A DNA stretch of 30,661 bases from a virus. A program made the translations under genes and the position numbers. The stretch spans positions 1 to 30,661 of the IMG/VR virus record IMGVR_UViG_3300004154_000032; one strand, given 5' to 3'. The notes under the pieces are model-generated. The model was given only the letters and a program-made list of their open reading frames with translations, was not told the origin of the DNA and searched no databases. Positions within the stretch are counted from its first letter, which is position 1. The number at the start of each line of letters is the position of its first letter. Positions 4,375 to 29,808 of this stretch are shown here, in pieces.

Positions 4375-5325
4375 ATGGACAAGATCGTAAGCCTGGAAGA
4401 GTTCAAGGCGATGCATGCGCGTGACCGCGCGACCGACCCGATCAGCTCGGGCGTTCACCTGCAGTCGTCCGGCAAGCTGGAAACGGAAGTTGCGGATGCG
4501 TTCATCTCCACCGTGATGGATACCCACAGCGAAGTGATGGGCGAAGTCACGGTTGAAAGGATGACAACCGAATCCAAGAGGATCGACCTGATCAGCCTGG
4601 CGAAACGCGCCATGCGCAAGGCCGTCGAAGGGACGGCCCCCACGGGAGTACAGGTCTACACGCCCTCGTCGCGGACCCTCTTGGTCGAAGAGGTGATCAC
4701 GGCTCACGACGTGACGAAGTCCTGGCTCGAAGACAACATCATGCGCGAAGGCGGGCTTGAGTTCATCAACGCCGAATTCGCCAAGCAGTTCCGCAATGAC
4801 ATGGTCGATCTCGGTTTCAACGGCGATGGCGCGACCCCCGGCTTCCTGGCCTGCAACAAGGGCTGGCTGCAGCTGATCAAGGAAGCGTCGACGACCAACA
4901 AGGTCGACGTCCCCGCCGCCAACGTCGACTACGACGCGATCTTCGGCCTTCTGTACGCGGCTCTGCCGAATCCGTACAAGCCCAGGACCAGCGAATTCAA
5001 GTTCTGGGTCTCCACCGTTGCCTGGCAGGGTTACAAAGATCAGCTCAAGGCGCGCAACACCAGCCTGGGTGACGCGATCATCACCGGCAACCAGCCCGTC
5101 TACTGGATGGGCATTGAGGTTGTGCCGCGCGAAGACTTCCCGGTCAGCAACTACCTGCTGTGCAGGCCGAAGAATCTGGTCGCCGGCATTCACGAACGCG
5201 ACATCTCCATCGACATCGACTGGGCGGCGCGTAAGCGGATGTACGAAGTGACGATCAGCGCCCGTATCGATTTCGAATTCGCCGTGGTCGACGAACTGGT
5301 TCTCGGCTACGACATCACCCCGTAG
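4375..5325 (+). CDS. Major capsid protein (P2 gpN-like)
   Basis: 316 residues; ATG 4375 follows GGAGG with a seven-base spacer. Residues 146-166 read LGFNGDGATPGFLACNKGWLQ. The first half recalls the IGFNG motif and the second the N.GWLQ motif of P2-family (gpN) capsid proteins, which have the HK97 fold. The length fits that family (about 330-360). The N-terminal 30 residues are charged and may be the region removed on maturation. Position right after protease-scaffold and before connector genes supports the assignment. It forms the icosahedral shell and is expected to be the most abundant product of the operon, in keeping with the strong ribosome-binding site and the hairpins on both sides. 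Confidence 0.85.
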   Translation: MDKIVSLEEFKAMHARDRATDPISSGVHLQSSGKLETEVADAFISTVMDTHSEVMGEVTVERMTTESKRIDLISLAKRAMRKAVEGTAPTGVQVYTPSSRTLLVEEVITAHDVTKSWLEDNIMREGGLEFINAEFAKQFRNDMVDLGFNGDGATPGFLACNKGWLQLIKEASTTNKVDVPAANVDYDAIFGLLYAALPNPYKPRTSEFKFWVSTVAWQGYKDQLKARNTSLGDAIITGNQPVYWMGIEVVPREDFPVSNYLLCRPKNLVAGIHERDISIDIDWAARKRMYEVTISARIDFEFAVVDELVLGYDITP

Positions 5326-5420: not shown

Positions 5421-7097
5421 ATGAACAAGAAGAACGAAGACACCACGCCGGTCGAAGATGTCGCACCGGTCGATTCCATTGAAAACAAGGCGCCGAAGCC
5501 GAAGTTCTACCAGCTCGTCGGCGCCAACACGTTCGTCGCGGACTACCTGGATGGCCCCGTGCACAAGGACGACACGGTTTCGTCGGCCTCGCTGAAGAAG
5601 CCCGGCATCGAAGCCATGGAAACCCTTCTGCGCGCCGGCATCTTCAAGATGCTCTCGGTCCTGATGGTTGTCGGCGCCCTGCTCCTGGGCAGCGCCCAGG
5701 CGTCCGCCCAGGAAACGGGCTCGAACTTCCAGTACCAGTCGAAGATCGGCTGGGGTGGCGCTTACCTGCAGACGCTGCCGACGGTGTTCGCGGAAGTCGA
5801 TGCCCTGTTTACCTCCATCGGTTCGGCGACGACCCTGACGTCCAATCTCGCGGCGACGACATCCGGCAAGGGTGCCAGTCTCGTTGGCGTTCAGGACACT
5901 GCGACGTACTTCACGGGGGCCACCGTTGAGGCGGTCCTTGCTGAACTCGGGCTGTTCGACACCAACCTCGGTTTGACCACGAATGGAAATGGCGCATCGA
6001 TGGTCGGCGTTGAAGATGTCGGGACGTACTTCACCGGAACTGACGTTGAAGCCGTGCTTGCCGAACTCGGACTGTTCAAGAGCAATCTGGCGCTTACCAC
6101 CACACCGGGCGGGGCTTCTTATATCGGTGTTTTTGATACCGCAGGGCATTTTACCGCCACCGATGTCGAAGCTGTTCTGGCCGAACTGTTTACCGTGAAA
6201 CAGGGCCTGGCGATTCCGATGGCAGCCGGCGAGACAGCCTATCTGGATGCTGCCGGACAGGTGCAGGCTGGCGGCGTACAACTGACTGACCTCGTTACGG
6301 AAAATGAAGTCGGCTCAACGCTGTCGGATTACGGCATCGTCCATTACCCCGTGACCCGTGCATTGGCTGGCGGAATCATACCCGTTGCCCCTGCTGACGG
6401 ATACCGCACCTTCTGCACGGCTGATGGCGGAACCTTCAGCGAAGGCAAGATCTACGAATACGACGATATCACTGGATGGAATGCCGGAACGAATGTCTCC
6501 GCTGGACAGCTTGTGCTGACTTACGACGGGAACCTGATTGTCGGCGGGGCAAACCTGACTTCATGGACGCAAATCGATGACTACGCGCTGTCCGCCGACC
6601 TTGAAGCCCGCATCATCAATGTCGTGGATATCGTAAGCGATACCGCGCCGGCTGATCCGAATATCGAAGGCTACCGCGTATTTATGACGGCCACGAACGG
6701 CGGCCTGGATGAAGGCAAAGTTTATACCTGGGATGACACCGGCAACGTGTGGGATGCAGGCACCCTGCTTGCGGACGGCCAGCTGGTGACATCCAAGGGC
6801 GCCAACCCCGACATCATCGTCGGTGGTACGGCGGCCACCAATTACGAACAGCTGTCGAAGAAACTCCCCATCGATGCGCTCCAATGTAAAACGATCACGA
6901 TTACCAATCCTGCGACATCCGGTGCCTCGGCGGCAGATCCGGACTGGATAGGCGCCACCATCTACAGCATCGTCCCGACGTCCGGATGCGACCAGCTCAT
7001 CACCGGTCATTCAGTCGCCGGCGACGGGGCGGTAACGGTTTCAACGGCGCTGACGCCCGGCACTGCGTGTGTCGTCAGTGCGTGCACGTTCCTGTAG
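5421..7097 (+). CDS. Capsid-proximal repeat protein with internal signal-peptide-like segment
   Basis: 558 residues; ATG 5421 follows GGAACGAGG. Four parts can be seen. Residues 1-75 are an acidic Pro/Lys-containing leader followed by a folded-looking segment (KFYQLVGANTFVADYLDGPV). Residues 77-96 (MLSVLMVVGALLLGSAQASA) are a strikingly good secretion signal ending in ASA|Q. Residues 143-262 are three exact-period 40-residue repeats (GAS.(V/I)GV.D....FT...VEAVLAEL), a module frequent in phage fibre and decoration proteins. Two further copies of a GYR.F.T...G....GK.Y..DD element lie near 327 and 417. The C-terminus contains several Cys. The position after major capsid suggests a head fibre or decoration protein. 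Met77 (ATG 5649) could be a separate start but has no good ribosome-binding site. Not assigned to a named family. Confidence 0.65.
   Translation: MNKKNEDTTPVEDVAPVDSIENKAPKPKFYQLVGANTFVADYLDGPVHKDDTVSSASLKKPGIEAMETLLRAGIFKMLSVLMVVGALLLGSAQASAQETGSNFQYQSKIGWGGAYLQTLPTVFAEVDALFTSIGSATTLTSNLAATTSGKGASLVGVQDTATYFTGATVEAVLAELGLFDTNLGLTTNGNGASMVGVEDVGTYFTGTDVEAVLAELGLFKSNLALTTTPGGASYIGVFDTAGHFTATDVEAVLAELFTVKQGLAIPMAAGETAYLDAAGQVQAGGVQLTDLVTENEVGSTLSDYGIVHYPVTRALAGGIIPVAPADGYRTFCTADGGTFSEGKIYEYDDITGWNAGTNVSAGQLVLTYDGNLIVGGANLTSWTQIDDYALSADLEARIINVVDIVSDTAPADPNIEGYRVFMTATNGGLDEGKVYTWDDTGNVWDAGTLLADGQLVTSKGANPDIIVGGTAATNYEQLSKKLPIDALQCKTITITNPATSGASAADPDWIGATIYSIVPTSGCDQLITGHSVAGDGAVTVSTALTPGTACVVSACTFL
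5847..6206 (+). repeat. Three 120-bp in-frame coding repeats (40-residue modules)
   Basis: Units at 5847-5966, 5967-6086 and 6087-6206 each encode 40 residues aligned without gaps. Shared positions include GAS at 10-12 of the first unit, G(V/I).D at mid-unit, FT, and VEAVLAEL near the end. Nucleotide similarity is highest around the VEAVLAEL codons and lower elsewhere, so the duplication is not very recent. The periodicity suggests a repeating rod or fibre. Confidence 0.8.
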
Positions 7098-7124: not shown

Positions 7125-7736
7125 ATGGGCAATTACCTGACGATCGCAGACATCAGGGCAGAGGGTGTCACGGCCGAAATCGCCGCCGACGCCTTGGTTA
7201 CTGCCGCGATCGCAGATGCAGCCAGACGCGCTGAAGCAGCGGCCCACACGTGGTTCGAAGCCCGCACGAAAACGCTGTACGTAAATGGTACTGGACGATC
7301 ACGCTTGGACCTCGACTACCCACTGATCACACTGACATCTCTCACCATCGACGGAGTGTCTGTTACCGATACCATCGTTAGAGCGCATCCGGTCTCGGGC
7401 CTCGCATATGAACTGCGTCGCCCGGCCGGAGCGGTCTTCGCGAAGGGCGAAGGGAACATCACCATCGTTGGTTCGTTCGGTGCTGTTGATATGTCGGGCG
7501 AAACACCGGCCACACCGGCGAACATCAAGTGGGCGCTCAAGCGTTGGGCGTACCTCCTGCTTCCGAAAGTTACTGACGAAGATCTCGCCCAGGAGCGCCG
7601 CTTCCTTACGGCCACCAATGTGAACATGTCCGGTCGGTCCATGTCGCGCGGCCCTGTGCTCGCGCCGCTGTCGGGAGACCCCGAGGTCGATCGCATCATT
7701 ACCAGCTACCGGCGCCCCAGGGTTGCCGTGATTTGA
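7125..7736 (+). CDS. Head-tail connector / adaptor (gp6- or gp15-like)
   Basis: 203 residues from ATG 7125, with GAGG ten bases upstream. The order of elements fits phage head-tail adaptors: an N-terminal helical entry (YLTIADIRAEGV), a helix-rich AADAARRAEAAAHTWFEARTKTLYV segment, a beta stretch with hydrophobic alternation, then NIKWALKRWAYLLLPK, the second helix bundle typical of gp6/gp15-type connectors. These form a ring below the portal. It is the first gene after the capsid block and is followed at short spacing by three further neck-type genes. The family is inferred from size, helical pattern and position; no invariant motif is available. Confidence 0.6.
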   Translation: MGNYLTIADIRAEGVTAEIAADALVTAAIADAARRAEAAAHTWFEARTKTLYVNGTGRSRLDLDYPLITLTSLTIDGVSVTDTIVRAHPVSGLAYELRRPAGAVFAKGEGNITIVGSFGAVDMSGETPATPANIKWALKRWAYLLLPKVTDEDLAQERRFLTATNVNMSGRSMSRGPVLAPLSGDPEVDRIITSYRRPRVAVI

Positions 7737-9044: not shown

Positions 9045-9970
9045 AAATACTTCCATCTGGTCGCGGTTTTTACATTTGGGTGCTCGCGAGATGCGAAGGC
9101 GGAGACGTTGCAGCCATCATTAATCGCTGCAAGCGTTGCGGTATTTCTTGGGTAGCGATCAAAGGCGGGAACACCGGTTCGTCGTGGATACCGAGATTCC
9201 GCAACAAGGTTCAGCTTACCAAGGACATCGTCGAGCGGTTCCATGCGGCCGGCATCAAGGTGTATGCCTGGTCGTATGACATCCCCCGGTCATACCGCAC
9301 GAAAGACGGCGGCGCCCGCTTCGATCCAGACGTGCTGGCCCGCCAGGCCGAGGCCTTCAGCAAGGCCATGGACATCGGCTGCGATGGTGTGGTCAGCGAT
9401 TCCGAAACCGAATGGGATCGGGGGATTAACGCCGACTACGACGCCGAGGTCTTCGGCGTCGAGATTAGAGAGCGTTGCCCGGACGCTGCTGTCGGCGATG
9501 CGCCGTGGGCGTACACCGGTTATCACAAGCCTTTCCCGTTCACGAAGTTCGGTGGGTTCGTCGATTTCCGTTGTCCGCAGGTCTACTGGATGGAAATCAG
9601 TGGTGGTGTCGAGCGGGTCTGCGAGACATACGCCAGGTACTGGGACAAGTACGAATCCCGGCCTAATCATCCGAAGCTGCCGCATCTGCCGTCAGGCTCC
9701 ATTTATGACAAGCAGGCTACTCGCGGCATCGACCAACCGTTCCAAACGAACGGTATTCCGAAGCAGTTCCCGGAAACTGGATTGAGGGCGCTGTTGAAAA
9801 GCATCCGGGCGATCTCCAAGGCTGTCCATCTCGTAGATGTTGATGACATCGCATTCTTCGAAAAATTCATGCGCGATCGTGGGTGCCCGGGCGTTCTGCA
9901 CTGGGAGTATTCGCAGGTCCCGGACCGCGTGTGGCAGGCATTTGAATCCGGCGAAATTCCGAGGTGGTAG
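9041..9970 (+). CDS. TIM-barrel glycoside-hydrolase-like protein, putative endolysin
   Basis: 309 residues; GGGAGG precedes ATG 9041, which overlaps the previous stop. The sequence has the rhythm of a (beta/alpha)8 hydrolase: GFYIWVL at strand 1, GISWVAIKGG at strand 2, AAGIKVYAWSYDIP at strand 3, and CDGVVSDSETEW (residues 114-125) at strand 4, carrying Asp115/Asp120/Glu122/Glu124 as candidate catalytic acids. Later strands follow (FVDFRCPQVYW, GCPGVLHWEYS). GH25-type muramidases share this layout, but I do not see their exact motifs, so substrate is unproven. The next gene encodes holin-like membrane segments, which supports a cell-wall-degrading role. No signal peptide is visible, consistent with holin-dependent release. 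Confidence 0.6.
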   Translation: MKILPSGRGFYIWVLARCEGGDVAAIINRCKRCGISWVAIKGGNTGSSWIPRFRNKVQLTKDIVERFHAAGIKVYAWSYDIPRSYRTKDGGARFDPDVLARQAEAFSKAMDIGCDGVVSDSETEWDRGINADYDAEVFGVEIRERCPDAAVGDAPWAYTGYHKPFPFTKFGGFVDFRCPQVYWMEISGGVERVCETYARYWDKYESRPNHPKLPHLPSGSIYDKQATRGIDQPFQTNGIPKQFPETGLRALLKSIRAISKAVHLVDVDDIAFFEKFMRDRGCPGVLHWEYSQVPDRVWQAFESGEIPRW

Positions 9971-9972
9971 AC

Positions 9973-11043
9973 GTGAACGAAGCATCGCTCAACGCAGATA
10001 TCCGGGAAATCAAAGGTGACGTGAAACTCCTCCTTGGTCACTACCAAGAGATTAAGGGCGCTCTCGGCACTTACGACGTGCGCCTGAAGCACGGCGAGGG
10101 CGAATTCGGGGGGCTGAAAGTCCGCATGGAAAAGGTCGAAGACTCAATGGTCAGCCTTGATGCGTGTAAGGAGCGGCATGGGTCGAATCGGTGGCTGGTC
10201 GGCACCATCATCGCATGCGCCAGCATGGTGATCGCATGCCTCGCTCTATTTATCCCGGCAAAGGCAAAGGGCCTTGCCATAACTCCGGAGGTACCTATGG
10301 AGCTTATCGAAATGGTGAAAGCGAACTGGGACGCCTGGCTGATGATCGCCGGCGGGATCCTGGTGGTGGTCGGCGTGCTGGCCAAGGCCGCGGAGGGTCT
10401 GTCTTCGCAATGGGCGGCAAGGCCTGAAAAGTTCAAGGGCGCAGTCGTCACGCTGGTATCCGGCCTCGTCGGTCTCGCCGTGGCCTTTCTGCCCGGCTCG
10501 GACATGCCGTGGTATGCGGGCCTCGTGATCGGGCTGTTGGCCGGTGGAGGCGCGATAGGCGCGAACTTTGGATATTCGGCTGGGCAGCGCGCCATGATTA
10601 GGCGCCGCGGACTCAAGATTACCAAAGGTCTCGCAGAGGCGAACAGGCTTCGCAGAGGATCAGGGGGCTTCGCCAGACTGATGCCTCTGCTCATCATCGC
10701 GATCCTTGCTTCTGCGATGGCCCTCGGAAACATCAGTTGCACGGCAGCGCAGCAGCAGATTCAGCAGGGTATCTGGGCGCAGGGCGGCCTGGGCATGAGC
10801 AAGTGCCTCCTCGAATGCGGGGCGCCGGCCGTGACGACTCACATCGATTACAACGAAGTCTCCATCGACACGACCGGCATGACCGACGACCTCTTGTCAT
10901 GTCTGATGACGTGCACGAGCAAGATCGGCATCCCGACAATCATCGCGTCAATTATCTCGGCGGTTACTGACCGGGACATGGTGTGTGATGCGCGACTTGA
11001 ACGCAGGCTGGTCGTGACGAAAAGACCTGGGGAAGGACGATGA
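9973..11043 (+). CDS. Composite lysis-type membrane protein: coiled-coil/1-TM + 3-TM holin-like + lipoprotein-like
   Basis: 356 residues from GTG 9973 (GAGG at 9961-9964). Three modules lie in one frame. Residues 1-73 are a charged coiled coil (NADIREIKGDVKLLLGHYQE) followed by a TM at about 74-94, resembling XhlA-type holin partners. From Met109 (ATG 10297, strong GGAGG six bases upstream) comes a holin-like part with TMs near 122-140, 155-173 and 180-201 and a basic cytoplasmic loop. From about 235 a further hydrophobic segment (MPLLIIAILASAMALGNIS) ends at Cys256, like a lipoprotein signal, then a Cys-rich periplasmic-type tail with LLECG and LSCLMTCT. The second module can clearly be made alone. 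The next gene, a caspase, is coupled by an ATGA overlap. Each module is usually a separate small gene in other phages. Confidence 0.65.
   Translation: MNEASLNADIREIKGDVKLLLGHYQEIKGALGTYDVRLKHGEGEFGGLKVRMEKVEDSMVSLDACKERHGSNRWLVGTIIACASMVIACLALFIPAKAKGLAITPEVPMELIEMVKANWDAWLMIAGGILVVVGVLAKAAEGLSSQWAARPEKFKGAVVTLVSGLVGLAVAFLPGSDMPWYAGLVIGLLAGGGAIGANFGYSAGQRAMIRRRGLKITKGLAEANRLRRGSGGFARLMPLLIIAILASAMALGNISCTAAQQQIQQGIWAQGGLGMSKCLLECGAPAVTTHIDYNEVSIDTTGMTDDLLSCLMTCTSKIGIPTIIASIISAVTDRDMVCDARLERRLVVTKRPGEGR
10287..10299 (+). promoter_or_regulatory. Strong internal ribosome-binding site and in-frame start (holin-like part)
   Basis: GGAGG at 10287-10291 lies five to six bases before ATG 10297, in the frame of the 9973-11043 gene. 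This is the best ribosome-binding site in that gene, better than the one at its own start. It would yield a 248-residue product beginning MELIEMVKANWD and lacking the coiled coil and first TM, giving long and short forms from one gene as in dual-start holin genes. A third possible start, ATG 10681, has only a distant G-run. Confidence 0.6.
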
Positions 11044-11846
11044 AACGCAGGGCGGTCATAGTCGGAATAAACCGGTACCAGATGCCTGGCTGCGATCTCC
11101 AGGGCTGTGTCCCTGACGCCGAACGCTACGCCAACATTCTGGTCAACCTGGCGGGGTATAACCGCGAAGACGTGACCGTCCTGCTCGACTCGTCCGCTAC
11201 CACCCGGGCAATCAAGGGCGCGCTGAACGATGCATCAGCTGGCCTGGTCGACGATGACCACCTGATATTCATTAACTCGTCACATGGCACTCAGACCGAG
11301 GACGGCAACGCCCGGACCGACTGTCTGTGTCCGTATGACTTCGACTGGTCTCCTGATCGCGTGATTTCCGCTGATTGGTTGCATGAATTCGTTTCTGGGA
11401 TCCCGAGCTCGGTCAGGATCCGCGTCGTCATCGATGCGTGTCATTCGGGCGACGCCCTCCGGGATGGCATGCCGCGCCCTGGGGCGCCGGTGGTTATCGG
11501 CTCGAGGACGATGCCCGGTTCGCTGACGTTCGACCGTGGGCACGGCCGCCATCTGCGGTTCCGGGACTTGACGAAACTGTTCCCGTCCGCCGGCTTCATC
11601 GCCGCCTGTCGGTCGAACGAAACAGCGGCCGATGCCCGGTTCGTTGTCAACGGGCGCTCTGTGTACCAGGGCGCTTTGTCATGGTTCCTCGCCGAACAGC
11701 TTGAGGCGCCCAAGGGACTGACAAGGTCAATTCGCCTGGTAACGAAGAAGGCCTTCGAGAATCTGCGTGAAGCTGGTTACAGGCAAAACCCGGTGTTACG
11801 CGGCCCATGGGAAGAAATTTCCAAGGGCTTTACAAGGCACATGTAA
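11040..11846 (+). CDS. Caspase/metacaspase-fold cysteine protease (peptidase C14)
   Basis: 268 residues; ATG 11040 overlaps the preceding stop (ATGA) with GGAAGGA just upstream. The N-terminus (RAVIVGINRYQMPGCDLQGC, then DAERYANIL) is the first strand and loop of bacterial metacaspases (VGI..Y....L.GC..DA). The catalytic dyad is intact: His82 in FINSSHGT and Cys134 in VVIDACHSGD. DCLCPYD (94-100) matches the usual (D/C)....P.D loop, and a late IAACRSNETA strand corresponds to the (I)SAC...Q.A element. It is a single compact domain with no signal peptide or fused effector. Caspase-like proteases in bacteria serve in cell-death and anti-phage pathways; in a late phage operon the target is unknown. 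The next gene starts inside its stop codon. Confidence 0.9.
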   Translation: MKRRAVIVGINRYQMPGCDLQGCVPDAERYANILVNLAGYNREDVTVLLDSSATTRAIKGALNDASAGLVDDDHLIFINSSHGTQTEDGNARTDCLCPYDFDWSPDRVISADWLHEFVSGIPSSVRIRVVIDACHSGDALRDGMPRPGAPVVIGSRTMPGSLTFDRGHGRHLRFRDLTKLFPSAGFIAACRSNETAADARFVVNGRSVYQGALSWFLAEQLEAPKGLTRSIRLVTKKAFENLREAGYRQNPVLRGPWEEISKGFTRHM

Positions 11847-28531: not shown

Positions 28532-28581
28532 TCCTCGACCTCGAAAGTGCTATCATCAAACCAGTCTTGAGGAGCGTGGTT

Positions 28582-29808
28582 ATGCGACTTCGCCTGTTGC
28601 CATCCATCATAATCTGCATGTGCGCATCGGCATGCGGACAGTCAGTCATCGAACAGGACGCGCTTGACGCCGACCTGGGCGAGGACGTCGTGGAGATATT
28701 CTTCCCCGGGCTGGACGCGATTGACGATGTTCCGGAGGATGACTCGCACGAACTGCCCTGCATTCCGGACTGCACGAACCTTGAATGCGGCGCGGATCCC
28801 ATCTGTGGCGTCGAATGCGGACCTTGCCAGGACCGTTTCGTCTGTACGGCCGGCGCCTGCGTGGATGACTGTCTGGACAGGGAATGTGGCCGTTCCCCGA
28901 ACCTGAACGTGAACTGTGGCTGGTGCGAAGATAAATGGTGGTGTCATGAGGGGCATTGCCTTAATGACTGCATTGACATCGAATGCGGCCCGTCCCCTGT
29001 CATGCAAACGAGCTGCGGCATATGTAGCGGCAACACCGCCTGCTCGCTCGGGCACTGTATTTCGACAGGCGATATGGTCGACGTGCCGTATGGAGCTTTC
29101 TACATGGGTTGCCGAGATCCGAACGATGATTCTTGCACGCCCGGTGAGTACCCTTCACACGAAGTTGTGACCTCGGCATATGCAATCGATCGCACAGAGG
29201 TTACCCAGCATGCCTTCGCTGCCTGCGTCGATGCCGGCGAGTGCGAAACCCCGGCTTGTGGTTGGACGCCTGGCACGACACCTGACAACCCTGCGCTGTG
29301 CGTCACCTGGCACCAGGCTGCGACGTTCTGCGCCTGGGCGGATAAACGTCTGCCTACGGAAGCTGAATGGGAAAGGGCCGCGAAGAAAGATTATGACCGG
29401 ATTTACCCTTGGCAGGGCACCGACGCAACATGCGACCTGGCCGTGATGAACGACTTGGCCGTCGGCGGCTTTGGATGTGGAACCGGTGGGCCCTTGCCGG
29501 TTTGCAGCAGGTCTCCTGCCGGCGACAGCCCCTTCGGTGCCTGTGATATGGCCGGGAACGTCGCGGAATGGGTGGCCGACTGGCACGATGTCGATTACTA
29601 CTCTGTCAGCCCTCTCAATGACCCCACGGGGCCCGCCGAGGGAACGATGAAGGTTATCCGCGGCGGCGATTACGGCCGAGCGGGGCTCCCGAGCGCCATC
29701 CGTGTCACGCAGCGCGTCCGTGCAGAACCGGAACTGTGGGGCAGTTATATCGAGGGACCCGCTCTGTCGGTGGGGTTCAGGTGCGCGAGATCAATTCAAT
29801 CCATGTGA
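28582..29808 (+). CDS. Lipoprotein with Cys-rich repeats and SUMF1 (FGE-type) domain; prophage cargo
   Basis: 408 residues; ATG 28582 follows GAGGAG with a seven-base spacer. The first 18 residues (MRLRLLPSIIICMCASAC) are a lipoprotein signal with Cys18 as the lipidation site. Residues about 60-159 hold three repeats of about 39 residues (DC...ECG..P.....CG.C.....C..G.C). Residues about 164-405 are a formylglycine-generating-enzyme/SUMF1 domain: VPYGAFYMGC, IDRTEVTQHAF, VTWHQAATFCAWADKRLPTEAEWERAAK, GACDMAGNVAEWVADW, KVIRGGDYG, VGFRCA. The Cys pair that catalyses formylglycine formation is not seen in the corresponding stretch before GFRCA, so a non-catalytic, binding or scaffold role is more likely. 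This style of protein is common in delta/Myxococcota-type bacteria. It sits after the fibre genes as a moron, probably surface-displayed by the lysogen. Confidence 0.8.
   Translation: MRLRLLPSIIICMCASACGQSVIEQDALDADLGEDVVEIFFPGLDAIDDVPEDDSHELPCIPDCTNLECGADPICGVECGPCQDRFVCTAGACVDDCLDRECGRSPNLNVNCGWCEDKWWCHEGHCLNDCIDIECGPSPVMQTSCGICSGNTACSLGHCISTGDMVDVPYGAFYMGCRDPNDDSCTPGEYPSHEVVTSAYAIDRTEVTQHAFAACVDAGECETPACGWTPGTTPDNPALCVTWHQAATFCAWADKRLPTEAEWERAAKKDYDRIYPWQGTDATCDLAVMNDLAVGGFGCGTGGPLPVCSRSPAGDSPFGACDMAGNVAEWVADWHDVDYYSVSPLNDPTGPAEGTMKVIRGGDYGRAGLPSAIRVTQRVRAEPELWGSYIEGPALSVGFRCARSIQSM

Follow-up and report, generated by a model that had tools for sequence, protein, structure and literature searches.

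A probable modular capsid fibre with an internal Sec-signal-like segment, encoded between the capsid and head-tail adaptor genes of a phage

The capsid proteins of tailed phages assemble in the cytoplasm. In PBSX/skin-type phages, the gene of YqbF itself presumably lies after the XkdG capsid gene and ahead of the adaptor gene, and at 16 phage loci with related capsids the gene that follows the capsid gene usually encodes a protein of 65-250 residues that is often acidic; in two of them, L005 and L011, the capsid gene is followed in the annotation by what looks to be the adaptor gene. Fibres borne on heads or capsids, among them gp8.5 of phi29, are treated in passages of a review (PMC7602432) and, for phage 7-7-1, of a second article (PMC12796354), and a term search of these two texts found no passage on signal peptides. 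Among the papers searched, titles and abstracts revealed none that plainly describes a Sec signal inside a capsid fibre of a tailed phage.

The window analysed here is the whole stretch of 30,661 nucleotides of the IMG/VR record IMGVR_UViG_3300004154_000032, in which the gene under study, its parts, and its two neighbours lie on the + strand. Profile searches assigned the upstream open reading frame (ORF; 4375-5325) to PHROG 1623 (head; E 7.8e-53), an XkdG-type major capsid protein that is 23-30% identical to annotated capsid proteins of Vibrio, Stenotrophomonas, Rhodobacter, and other phages, and the downstream ORF (7125-7736) to PHROG 442 (head-tail adaptor; E 4e-15). The capsid alignment proved too divergent for a scan. 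The gene between them (5421-7097) begins with an ATG at 5421, past the end of the capsid ORF at 5325, and closes with a stop codon at 7095-7097; an earlier sequence-only reading had placed it directly 3' of the major capsid gene, and the two profile matches bear this out. Its description as a capsid-proximal fibre or decoration protein of 558 residues draws on the ORF, its Shine-Dalgarno sequence, and these capsid and adaptor neighbours, and it has the adjoining major capsid gene by which cement and decoration proteins are recognised. The protein had no match among annotated phages, a sequence search of the PDB returned nothing meaningful, and as a whole the protein was not matched by the cement domain (PHROG 122 / PF09956) in Pfam or PHROGs at E up to 0.1. 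Among viral contigs, searches with the whole protein, with residues 1-138, with the duplicated domain described below, and with the capsid protein returned only L002, a second IMG/VR record whose 11159 bases are identical to the beginning of the window and which is not independent evidence; the baseplate protein of the window had zero relatives there.

Three tandem repeats of ~40 residues with the pattern GASxVGVxDxxxYFTxTxVEAVLAELG are encoded at 5835-6203 (alignment A2), and the same repeat is encoded in 131 viral contigs when the window's own record is counted, that is, in at least 130 others. Two copies of a ~75-residue domain (GYRxFxTAxxGxxxEGKxYxxDD...GQLV; 6381-6872, alignment A6) are 46% identical to each other, and in viral contigs this domain was found only in the window's own record. 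The C-terminal 78 residues (6861-7094) are predicted to form a fibre-tip-like beta domain and belong to a seven-member family comprising the window, L052, L057, L070, and L092-L094 (alignments A3 and A5), the relatives having been recovered by tblastn at E 5e-13 to 9e-7. An AlphaFold model of this domain alone reached a pLDDT of 92; the full-length single-sequence model, at a pLDDT of 34, is too poor to judge. Foldseek matches to the domain were weak (best E 0.03 in the PDB; best E 0.005 in BFVD, with probability 0.99-1.00), and many of them are phage tailspikes, an R-pyocin fibre, and viral fibre or decoration proteins; in the PDB list, proteins with no relation to these, PCSK9 for example, have similar scores.

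Both the tandem repeat and a C-terminal beta domain held in common with decoration-fibre proteins, by which we delimited repeat-bearing phage fibre proteins, are therefore present in the window protein. L052, L057, and L070 encode the repeats together with the C-terminal domain and L092 encodes the C-terminal domain; in all four, the PHROG 122 decoration domain comes first and the gene lies close behind a capsid gene (PHROG 4523), with one other ORF between the two in L092. In L070, the decoration domain is also matched by Pfam Phage_cement_2, and the next gene encodes a head-closure protein. Because the repeats and the C-terminal domain are common to these decoration proteins, the shaft and tip of the window protein appear to be of the kind that is mounted on capsids, and we infer, with good support and at a high probability, that the 558-residue product is a modular capsid fibre. 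This modifies the earlier suggestion of a secreted repeat protein: the repeats are indeed there, but together with the C-terminal domain they are typical also of capsid-decoration and fibre proteins and not solely of secreted ones.

The part of the protein nearest the capsid gene is less readily placed. Residues 1-76 (5421-5648) occupy the position of YqbF by gene order only, a positional equivalence, and it is this position that suggests a capsid-side role for them. They showed no detectable sequence similarity to the small proteins encoded after related capsid genes and were not matched by the PF14553 (YqbF) profile, the agreement being one of position only, and N-terminal pieces of the protein were unmatched by PHROG 122 / PF09956 at E up to 10. 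A linker of residues 97-138 (5709-5834), for which no relatives were found, joins the signal-like segment to the repeats and has the codon composition of the capsid-side part.

Between residue 76 and this linker, residues 77-96 (5649-5708) read MLSVLMVVGALLLGSAQASA and are followed by Gln97, giving a hydrophobic segment that ends AQASA|Q and that direct reading, rarity tests, and insertion energy all mark as Sec-signal-like. The basic residues R71 and K76 precede the hydrophobic core, an acidic residue follows it, and the approximate membrane insertion energy of residues 74-90 is -1.9. With this rough value negative, the membrane-attachment segment that the sequence-only reading had also suggested is possible. 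Under our own crude rule, which is not a trained predictor and which required an upstream basic residue, an uncharged 10-residue core with a mean Kyte-Doolittle hydropathy of at least 3, and AxA, the segment has the basic n-region, hydrophobic core, and cleavage site of a Sec signal; it lacks the N-terminal placement of one, beginning at residue 77.

Hydropathy alone is unexceptional here: when the residues of the protein are shuffled, 16-20% of the shuffles contain a window just as hydrophobic, and this is the figure that a chance stretch with neither a structural nor an export role could draw upon. The full signal-like pattern, however, arose in just 0.6% of shuffles, and the rule was passed by 4 of 763 mechanically predicted genes on the fetched contigs (two of the four in the window) and, in a non-redundant count over the same contig set, by 2 of 514 other genes, which makes a chance stretch very improbable. 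The claim that a Sec-signal-like segment lies at residues 77-96, in mid-protein, accordingly held up, its sequence being as stated and its full pattern rare. So did the view that a signal is unexpected in this place: none of 17 proteins encoded after related capsid genes has a hydrophobic run with a mean above 1.6, so the segment is unusual for its position, and no such signal occurs in 64 of the 67 repeat-bearing phage proteins.

Since capsid assembly is cytoplasmic, an export signal inside a capsid protein would mean either a fibre of dual location or an unusual hydrophobic stalk. We tentatively favour the latter, at a likelihood somewhat short of even: a capsid-decoration fibre made as one polypeptide, in which segment 77-96 would be an uncleaved hydrophobic stalk that does not serve secretion. 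Against this reading, the segment satisfies the Sec rules much more closely than would be expected of a hydrophobic stretch arising by chance. As for the two other genes that pass them, the product of the one in L016, which has an N-terminal signal of the ordinary sort, seems truly secreted, and the multi-span protein at 9964 in the window seems truly membrane-bound. The latter gene (9964-11043) encodes 359 residues that appear to span the membrane several times and include, late in the sequence, a lipobox-like stretch (LLIIAILASAMALGNISC); its product is possibly a fusion of holin/spanin type. At 11040-11846, adjoining what is likely the lysis region, the phage encodes a caspase-like peptidase (Pfam Peptidase_C14, E 8e-18).

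The segment could also have been the start of a product of its own, and a nested gene from 5649 had indeed been proposed. The Shine-Dalgarno sequence at 5421 scores -6.6 kcal/mol against a background median of -2.8, and the anti-Shine-Dalgarno energies at 5616 (Met66; -1.7), 5649 (Met77; -1.7), and 5664 (Met82; -2.4) do not amount to a site at any of the three; at 5559, an internal GTG reaches -5.5, but a start there would fall 30 residues ahead of the hydrophobic segment. A product begun at Met77 would have an n-region free of Lys and Arg, and because this codon lacks both a Shine-Dalgarno sequence and basic residues before the core, the proposal of a gene from 5649 found no support. Met66 was considered as a better-charged alternative start and rejected, being likewise without a Shine-Dalgarno sequence. 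Read from the sequence, a start there would yield a well-formed signal of 31 residues (METLLRAGIFKMLSVLMVVGALLLGSAQASA), but with both candidate starts weaker than the background median and the basic n-region missing at Met77, we give a second, secreted product from within the ORF hardly any credence.

Codon composition bears on where the modules of the gene were joined. At codon 146, GC3 falls from 0.86 to 0.66, a shift that 0 of 2000 shuffles reached. The 2-unit likelihood interval of this break is codons 108-188; placing it at codon 76 instead gives a much poorer fit (4.2 versus 11.6 log units). GC at four-fold sites is 0.92 in residues 1-76, 0.94 in 77-96, 0.90 in 97-145, and 0.71 after 145, and residues 1-145 match the composition of the capsid gene, the GC3 of which is 0.83. 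Since GC3 shifts near codon 146 and not at 77, the signal-like segment goes with the capsid-side module rather than with the repeats. The sequence-only reading had supposed a fusion of a small capsid-associated gene with a secreted repeat protein; a modular join within the gene is borne out by the GC3 shift, but it appears to fall at about codon 146 (108-188) and not at the signal, and the composition break argues, if indirectly, against a small capsid gene having simply been glued to a signal-bearing secreted repeat protein.

A related possibility is that the ORF is a relic of two genes, a small one encoding residues 1-76 and one for a secreted repeat protein, which became one when a stop codon was lost or which merely look joined because the metagenome assembly contains a base error. 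Relatives do have a separate small gene at this place, and the +1 frame contains a TGA (5662-5664), which means that a single-base error could mask the end of a gene; because L002, the sole other record, duplicates the first part of the window exactly and is not independent, an assembly error of this kind is conceivable. We nevertheless regard such a relic as unlikely: codon composition shows no change at residue 76, its break coming only at 108-188, and Met66, Met77, and Met82 all lack the Shine-Dalgarno sequence that would be expected of a separate second gene. The sequence as it stands shows a single open frame, with the position, modules, and composition break given above.

Other repeat proteins bear more directly on export. 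Two further phage repeat proteins, in L056 and L090, have signal-like sequences at their N-termini, and Sec-like segments were found in 3 of 67 repeat proteins (the window, L056, and L090) versus 2 of 514 others, an enrichment (p=0.012; p 0.035 without the window) that is to be taken loosely because the cleavage-site distance in the rule was relaxed between the 4/763 and 3/67 counts and it was this relaxation that brought L056 in. The L056 gene (547-2085) has a head protein gene (PHROG 302) on one side and one for a tail sheath on the other, and its homologues in L096 and L098 are without the signal-like sequence; the L090 repeat gene comes after baseplate-like and tail-fibre genes. A hydrophobic N-terminus in L083 was set aside as a candidate signal, being decoration-domain-like by eye. 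In a Patescibacteria genome (L001, 4717-6936), a typical signal sequence stands ahead of the same repeats. Combinations of repeat and signal thus exist but are sporadic. As side observations, two consecutive genes of L090 (5596-8940 and 8925-10337) follow a tail-fibre gene and both encode signal-like N-termini, the first together with fibre repeats and cysteines, and the L001 gene adjoins others for large signal-bearing proteins.

Because the L056 and L090 proteins carry N-terminal signal-like sequences, which hint at a real link to export and in that measure count against an uncleaved stalk, an export or anchoring role deserves some weight. Under such a role, segment 77-96 would function within the protein as a signal-anchor or as a cleavable signal. 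The protein would insert into the inner membrane with residues 1-76 on the inner side and the repeats on the outer, either anchored or released, and an exported copy of the fibre could occupy surface receptors of the host and so block superinfection, or could stay cell-binding. The placing of R71 and K76, the acidic residue, and the AQASA|Q site, the insertion energy of -1.9, the enrichment of Sec-like segments among repeat-bearing phage proteins, and the Patescibacteria protein all speak for this arrangement, as does a gene at 28567 by which the phage also encodes a signal-like N-terminus with an FGE domain. However, a cleaved signal would not usually have 76 residues ahead of it, the gene is part of the head module and ends in a domain common to capsid-decoration proteins, and the signal-free homologues of L056 indicate that these signals are not conserved; we judge a working signal to be possible, though on balance unlikely. 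More doubtful still is the wider proposition that in some tailed phages a fibre protein carries a functional Sec signal, in this case placed after a capsid-side domain and ahead of the fibre, and is both mounted on the capsid and exported to or anchored in the envelope; such a dual-location fibre, or part of one, could for example occupy the receptors of the infected cell. The gene at 28567-29808 encodes Cys-rich repeats and an FGE-sulfatase domain (E 5e-42) together with an N-terminus that resembles a signal or that of a lipoprotein, and is an unusual cargo at the end of the block of phage tail genes.

Under the favoured reading of an uncleaved stalk, one polypeptide of 558 residues would be translated from 5421, and its N-terminal part, in the position of a small YqbF-type gene, would face or bind the capsid. 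The three repeats would form the shaft and the C-terminal beta domain the tip, which probably touches the host surface. Segment 77-96 would have been borne within the capsid-side module, with shaft and tip probably added later, and most likely stays uncleaved as a short hydrophobic stalk where the subunits meet at the base of the fibre; this packing of subunits, like the lack of secretion, is our inference. Fibre proteins of this sort are known, but an export-like stretch buried in one is unusual, and any use of it here is putative. The finding connects a widespread phage fibre repeat with capsid decoration proteins and with the occasional Sec signals of L056, L090, and the window.

Among known systems, the proteins in the YqbF position of PBSX/skin-type phages (PF14553) resemble the window protein in that a small protein is encoded after the XkdG capsid gene and before that of the adaptor; they differ in being separate proteins of 65-250 residues free of any strongly hydrophobic segment. 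The cement and decoration proteins (PF09956 Phage_cement_2, PHROG 122) with repeats of L052, L057, L070, and L061 have the repeat type of the window protein and, in L052, L057, and L070, the same C-terminal beta domain and proximity to the capsid gene, whereas L061 lacks that domain; the window protein in turn lacks the cement domain and has in its place residues 1-76, unrelated in sequence, and then the Sec-like segment. With phi29 gp8.5 and other head fibres, it has no relation in sequence and no demonstrated one in fold, but as these are portrayed in the passages cited at the outset, they match our reading of it as a capsid-borne fibre that would aid contact with the host.
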